Assembly (NCBI RefSeq): GCF_015143595.1
Contig: NZ_WYEU01000002.1
Span: 620,001 to 684,000, forward strand
DNA length: 64,000 nt
Reading direction: 5' to 3'
From: Sneathiella sp. P13V-1
GTDB lineage: Bacteria; Pseudomonadota; Alphaproteobacteria; Sneathiellales; Sneathiellaceae
Shown here: piece after piece, positions 11,891 through 13,119 of the stretch
How positions within the stretch are numbered: position 1 is the stretch's first letter
How the letters are laid out: each line of letters starts with the position of its first letter
Program-made: the position numbers and the translations under genes
The notes under the pieces: model-generated
What the model saw: the letters and a program-made list of their open reading frames with translations, nothing else
What the model was told of the DNA's origin: nothing
The model's database searches: none

Positions 11891-11950
11891 TCGGGCTTAA
11901 GTCTCTATTTTCTCGCCAACAAATAAATACCGAATTTGAATGGAGTAATT

Positions 11951-13061
11951 ATGCGCGCCGAGCATCAGGTTGTCGTGGATGAAATCAAGCAGGCGATGGA
12001 CCTGCTGAGGAGGCATCTTTAACTGGGATACAGCTGTTAGAAGACTGGATGAGCTGAATTCCCTCGTTGAAGATCCTGAGCTTTGGAATAATGCCACCAA
12101 AGCTCAAGGCCTGATGAGAGAGCGCACAACTCTCGATACCGCTATCAACGCCTATAAGCGCATTTCGCAAGATCTGGAAGATACGGTTGAACTGATCGAA
12201 CTTGCGGAGATGGAAGAGGACGAAGATACATTGAACGAGGCGGAAGAAGCCCTCAATGATCTTCGTGTTGAAGTTGATAAGCGCCGTCTTGAAAGCATGT
12301 TGTCCGGCGAAGTGGATGGGAACGATTGTTACCTTGAAATCCACGCCGGTGCGGGCGGTACGGAAAGCCAGGACTGGACGCAGATTCTGCTGCGCATGTA
12401 TATGCGTTGGGCGGATCAGCATGGCTGCAAGACCAAAGTGCTTGAGGAAAGCGCAGGCGAGGAAGCAGGTCTTAAATCCGTAACCATTGAGATCTCCGGT
12501 GAGAATGCGTATGGCTGGTTGAAGACAGAATCTGGTGTACATCGCCTTGTGCGAATTTCACCATTTGATTCAAATGCCCGCCGCCATACGAGCTTTTCAT
12601 CTGTTGGCGTGTATCCGGTTATTGATGACGATATTGATATTGAGATCGAAGAAAAAGATCTTCGTATTGATACATACCGCGCTTCCGGCGCCGGTGGTCA
12701 GCACGTGAACCGGACGGAATCTGCGATCCGTATCACCCATATTCCGACAAATATTGTGGTGCAATGTCAGAACGATCGCTCCCAGCATAAGAACAAAGCG
12801 GCGGCGATGAAGATGTTGAAATCTCGCCTTTACGAAGCTGAGCTGCAAAAGCGTGAAGAAGCGGCAGCCGAAGCGCGCGGAACGCAAACCGATATTGGGT
12901 GGGGGCATCAGATCCGATCTTACGTTCTGCACCCATATCAGATGGTCAAAGACCTTCGCACCGGCGTTGAAAAAGGAAACGCCCAAGGTGTTCTGGATGG
13001 TGATCTGGATGATTATCTTGCCGCGGCCTTGTCACAGCGAGTTGGTGAGGGGGACGACTAG
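11951..13061 (+). CDS. prfB: Peptide chain release factor 2, programmed +1 frameshift
   Basis: Class I release factor for UGA and UAA stops. The gene is read as 11951-12019 joined to 12021-13061, skipping T12020, and gives 369 aa. The start ATG 11951 has TGGAG seven bases upstream. The first frame ends at TAA 12020-12022, and the +1 frame continues as N-W-D-T-A directly into the rest of the protein. Stop-recognition tripeptide SPF lies at about 203-205 and catalytic GGQ at about 248-250, almost the same as in E. coli RF2. A caller that ignores the frameshift would start at ATG 12114 and lose 54 residues. The odd point is TAA in place of the usual TGA (see findings). Confidence 0.95.
12008..12023 (+). 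promoter_or_regulatory. prfB: prfB +1 frameshift site with TAA stop
   Basis: The sequence is AGGAGG-CAT-CTT-TAA-C. AGGAGG is a strong internal Shine-Dalgarno-like element ending three bases before the slippery CTT, the same spacing as in E. coli prfB. Slipping from CTT to TTT moves the ribosome to the +1 frame. The stop is TAA, so Asn (AAC) follows where Asp (GAC after TGA) is typical. Confidence 0.92.
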
Positions 13062-13084: not shown

Positions 13085-13119
13085 AAAAGCCGGCCTTATG
13101 CAGAGGCCGGCTTTTTTAT
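13085..13119. terminator. Bidirectional terminator between prfB and the nucleoside-recognition gene
   Basis: AGCCGGCC (13088-13095) pairs with GGCCGGCT (13105-13112), flanked by A-run and T-run. The stop codon of the minus-strand gene lies in the loop, so the hairpin serves both convergent genes. Confidence 0.9.

Follow-up and report, generated by a model that had tools for sequence, protein, structure and literature searches.

The window, which is the whole 64,000-nucleotide stretch of Sneathiella DNA analysed here, carries on its forward strand a prfB gene (11951-13061) that is read in two frames. The zero frame opens at the ATG at 11951 and forms a leader of 23 codons plus a TAA stop (11951-12022). 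The open-frame list takes this frame from an upstream TTG (11936-12022), and the ATG at 11951 fits the MRAEHQ start that is common to the genus relatives. Near the end of the leader are an internal SD-like AGGAGG element (12008-12013), the spacer codon CAT (12014-12016) and the slippery codon CTT (12017-12019), and these are followed by TAAC (12020-12023), in which the in-frame stop TAA (12020-12022) and the C at the +4 position (12023) replace the usual TGAC. The RF2 body lies in the +1 frame and extends from AAC (Asn24) to a TAG at 13059-13061 (12021-13061). The product of the joined zero and +1 frames, 369 residues in length, matches the NCBIfam prfB model TIGR00020 at 528.6 bits (cut-off 370) and hence is RF2. 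On the 3' side of the gene is a terminator-like stem-loop (13085-13115) with 13 pairs, 7 of them GC, followed by a T-rich tail; the region contains two terminator-like sites, both at this stem, compared with a mean of 1.1 in shuffled sequences.

A frameshift is needed to make RF2 from this gene since the earliest ATG, GTG or TTG in the +1 frame is at 12114, and a start at that position would delete 54 residues. A frameshift-free restart downstream is thus ruled out, as this first start falls within conserved RF2. The site has the AGGRGG element three bases 5' of CTT, the CTT is followed directly by the T of the in-frame stop, the +4 base is C, and the +1 frame encodes a complete RF2. The stop is also one that RF2 can read, which in the definition given by Prince et al. 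(2025; PMC12421855) means TGA or TAA and excludes TAG. It is not the RF2-specific TGA, which is common at such sites without defining them, as the published family includes TAA. Compared with the E. coli-type TGA frameshift of prfB as described in the same paper, the SD-like element, three-base spacer, CTT codon, position of the in-frame stop near codon 24, +4 C and RF2 body in the +1 frame are all the same, whereas the stop in the window is TAA, readable by both RF1 and RF2, and Asn takes the place of Asp. The layout AGGAGG-CAT-CTT-TAA-C with RF2 encoded in the +1 frame, as set out in the earlier note, is therefore borne out by the sequence, the reading frames and the TIGR00020 match. The novelty of TAA that the note implied does not hold, because CTTTAA at this same site has already been published, and the window site is a minority form of the prfB frameshift site. 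In the results of Prince et al. (2025), the stop is TGA in 98.6% and TAA in 1.4% of 8,164 genomes with the motif, with none reported as TAG, while their discussion puts TGA at over 99%. The note's description of the stop as almost always TGA thus stands, also in the genus of the window (19 of the 21 genomes with the site). The same authors report CTTTAA in multiple phyla with retention within species, state that TAA is poorly tolerated and has not reached broad fixation within clades, and use the near-universal TGA as a main comparative argument that RF2 autoregulation is the purpose of the frameshift. A literature search judged by titles and abstracts returned no other paper on TAA at the prfB site.

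Within the genus, 24 genomes including that of the window were available and the site is present in 21, two with TAA and 19 with TGA. The codon that overlaps the stop in the +1 frame is AAC in the two TAA genes and GAC in the 19 TGA genes, which confirms the change from Asp to Asn described in the earlier note. The second TAA gene is in a separately assembled genome, Sneathiella sp. HCUG1435-5 (record JAEPMY010000007.1), which has TAAC exactly as in the window in a prfB gene with 84.5% DNA identity, so the unusual base recurs in a related genome. The two genes form a clade (100/99) when the CTT codon and the stop-overlapping codon are left out of the tree. The simplest reading is that TAA is derived within the genus, where one G-to-A change in the ancestor of both genes would explain both. 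All members of the Sneathiella set, 22 genes picked with a pattern that demands AGGRGG, have AGGAGG as their SD-like element. Since the 20 TGA genes in this set all carry the same AGGAGG, and the eight TAA genes of Magnetococcales have AGGGGG just as their 27 TGA relatives do, a stronger SD-like element is not compensatory, contrary to what the earlier note had suggested for AGGAGG. Of the three remaining genus genomes, one has no match (G010) and one a single match at 38% identity that we take for RF1 (G007). In the third (G016:C87, L290, at about 1476-1512) the site reads AGGAGG-CAT-CTT-TGG-C, with the stop replaced by TGG and the frames still offset; this genome is 56% complete and a base error is likely.

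TAA at the prfB site is found well beyond Sneathiella. When 84,980 species genomes were scanned once with the pattern AGGRGGYMTCTTTAAYTDNGA, 72 loci matched. Verification as prfB with TAA succeeded for 64 of them and failed for the other eight, in the case of Acetobacter farinalis (L050) perhaps because the locus ends there. The loci include Acetobacter, Gluconobacter, Neokomagataea, Bartonella and Magnetococcales, several Hyphomicrobiales, a few Gammaproteobacteria, Enterococcus timonensis and others. The patterns used for the genus and order counts accept either TGA or TAA, with any base at +4. These gave 30 TAA and 15 TGA in Acetobacter (45 of 49 genomes matching), 11 and 15 in Gluconobacter (26 of 26), 8 and 63 in Bartonella (71 of 71), and 8 and 27 among the 35 verified genes of Magnetococcales (36 of 48 genomes, with one match unverified as prfB). 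Of the four other Acetobacter genomes, two have matches at 38-39% identity only, taken for RF1 (G512 and G521), and one has none (G517). The fourth, a small-genome Acetobacter (G281:C23, L291), has TAAC together with an altered SD-like element, CGGAGG. When the site is left out of the gene trees, all 30 TAA genes of Acetobacter form one clade (100/99), and the eight Magnetococcales TAA genes lie on one side of a 100/100 branch in a tree that is midpoint-rooted only. The Bartonella distribution needs four changes, likewise on a midpoint-rooted tree, and the best tree of Acetobacter and Gluconobacter needs three changes over both genera. A reversal from TAA to TGA in Gluconobacter is not claimed, as joining its 11 TAA genes was not rejected (p-AU 0.32). 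When the class was sampled evenly, the pattern was matched in 92 of 230 genomes; one match is unverified as prfB (G056, L012), and the other 91, mostly taken at the pattern level, include two with TAA, namely the window genome and one other whose gene was checked (G547). TAA is therefore rare overall, yet it is not limited to isolated tips of the tree. In one Acetobacter clade (30 genes) and one Magnetococcales clade (8 genes) every sampled gene carries it, which qualifies the statement of Prince et al. (2025) that TAA is not broadly fixed in clades. At one further prfB site (G559:C6:84030-84048) the stop and +4 base read TGAA rather than the near-universal TGAC, giving Glu in the +1 frame; the prfB match above cut-off in this genome begins at 84037.

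The base that follows the stop gives an indication of whether the frameshift is still under selection. A +4 C makes a weak stop (Prince et al., 2025) and favours frameshifting (PMC13245932, citing Poole et al., 1995). Among 274 verified gene copies, 227 of them non-identical (77 TAA and 150 TGA), the +4 base is C in all, even though the scan and the genus and order patterns admitted T. After TAA this C is the third base of the Asn codon, so that a change to T would be silent. The Acetobacter TAA clade, with a tree of 30 tips spanning 4.43 substitutions per site, provides 29 genes of full length, and every one of the 29 has AAC at the site. At 10 other positions Asn is conserved (at least 90% Asn), and at each of these both AAC and AAT occur. 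Of the 11 conserved Asn codons the site alone is free of AAT, and thus the C of the weak stop, and by inference frameshifting, is still under selection. This constraint speaks for frameshifting and not for its control by RF2. AAC is also present at the site in the TAA genes of Bartonella, Serratia symbiotica, Tokpelaia, Legionella and Enterococcus, in which the other Asn codons are mostly AAT (10 AAC to 79 AAT in a Bartonella clade of five, and 0 to 14 in Serratia symbiotica). For young changes in such AT-rich lineages, however, inheritance from TGAC is the simpler explanation, and the argument from constraint rests on the old Acetobacter clade because young TAA genes inherit the C without selection. 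The product of the AAC fractions over 21 lineages, from which Serratia symbiotica was left out as its fraction is zero, is 1e-9, but this is not a probability since the C is inherited from TGAC and independence of the lineages is not established. What is new here is the persistence of TAA at the level of a clade with continued constraint.

We propose with good confidence that the window contains a standard programmed +1 frameshift of prfB with one natural TGA-to-TAA change (Asp24 to Asn), in which RF2 represses itself with a lower gain and RF1 adds repression of its own, and that, as part of this same explanation, TAA is a tolerated and recurrent variant able to persist through a clade. The site elements, need for a frameshift, sharing with the sister genome, recurrence elsewhere and +4 C constraint in a TAA clade can all be read from sequences. 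In the proposed mechanism the ribosome would pause over the SD-like element with CUU in the P site, and would then either terminate at UAA or slip from CUU to UUU. Termination at UAA would be carried out by RF2 with help from RF1, and RF2 would still repress its own synthesis with a somewhat lower gain, while RF1 would now repress RF2 synthesis as well. The genome encodes an intact RF1 (362 residues; TIGR00019 at 509.6 bits, cut-off 423.25), and RF1 could therefore read UAA, in support of the competition at TAA that the earlier note had foreseen. It also encodes ArfB (141 residues; NF006718 at 188.1 bits, cut-off 100). In E. coli K-12, RF1 is reported to be 100-fold and RF2 12-fold less abundant than ribosomes (Baggett et al., 2017; PMC5373646). 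With equal rate constants assumed for each factor and an RF2:RF1 ratio of 3 to 10, a competition model starting from 30% frameshifting at UGA predicts that the log-gain to RF2 would fall from 0.70 to 0.57-0.65 and that a gain to RF1 of 0.19-0.07 would appear. From a 50% start the log-gain to RF2 would fall from 0.50 to 0.43-0.48. The predicted loss of RF2 gain is about 4-19%, and in the absence of RF2 frameshifting would top out at 56-91% instead of 100%. RF2 feedback is probably kept but diluted by RF1.

More tentatively, and with rather less than even confidence, we suggest that in TAA lineages the prfB switch might sense the joint capacity of RF1 and RF2 at UAA, with cross-repression of RF2 by RF1, and that this rewired loop might be stable through the whole Acetobacter clade. 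If so, a prfB frameshift could be maintained without any need for an RF2-specific stop, as in the 30 Acetobacter species genomes that were sampled. Among autoregulatory loops the prfB frameshift is a textbook case, and clades that combine a selected frameshift site with a stop readable by RF1 are natural experiments on the argument for autoregulation that is based on TGA. Some of these clades belong to acetic acid bacteria that are in culture and can be compared with close relatives that have TGA, and the clades also qualify the recent statement that TAA is poorly tolerated (Prince et al., 2025).

A more radical view is that the TAA site is indifferent to which factor reads it, such that RF1 suffices for rapid termination, next to nothing is left of RF2 feedback and the frameshift serves as a constant attenuator whose sole effect is a basal level of RF2. 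As reported by Lalanne et al. (2021; PMC8073009), the rsbV system of B. subtilis ceased to respond to RF2 knockdown once the native UGA had been changed to UAA, and ribosome queues at UAA were seen in neither depletion. By analogy, this favours the weaker RF2 feedback expected in the earlier note, and the feedback may even be nearly lost rather than merely diluted. The persistence of TAA through the Acetobacter clade would likewise suggest that this clade may manage without strictly RF2-specific control. Nevertheless, we regard such indifference as unlikely in view of evidence cited by Prince et al. (2025) that RF2 may be the main reader of UAA in most bacteria, and because the RF2 of the window has Ala246 (RAS-GAGGQ), the form to which a major share of UAA reading is ascribed (Baggett et al., 2017); most of the gain also remains in the model, where RF2 is assumed to exceed RF1. 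A tie between the TAA site and low UGA usage was considered as well, with ORFs picked mechanically from 19-20 stretches per genome. TGA shares of ORF ends differ little in the Sneathiella pair (31.3% of 252 in the window genome, G000, and 33.6% of 247 in G005), and the larger difference in the Acetobacter pair (46.1% of 241 in the TAA genome G240 and 64.3% of 221 in the TGA genome G487) goes along with a difference in GC content; two such pairs prove nothing.

It is also conceivable that the driver was the protein change and not the stop codon, as a G-to-A change at the first base of the overlapping +1 codon gives Asn while keeping an in-frame stop. Asn is found at this position in one of eight sampled alphaproteobacterial RF2 genes that lack the frameshift site (L318, G549), where no stop is at stake, and in sequence terms Asn at the Asp24 position is tolerated regardless of the stop. 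Asp is kept in the other seven, however, and we consider it quite improbable that selection for Asn explains the change. Lastly, a sequencing or assembly error with G as the true base, to which the one-base difference from the 19 genus relatives might point, is extremely improbable because the separately assembled sister genome has the same TAAC in a prfB gene that is 84.5% identical and that pairs with the window gene (100/99) in the tree built without the site codon.
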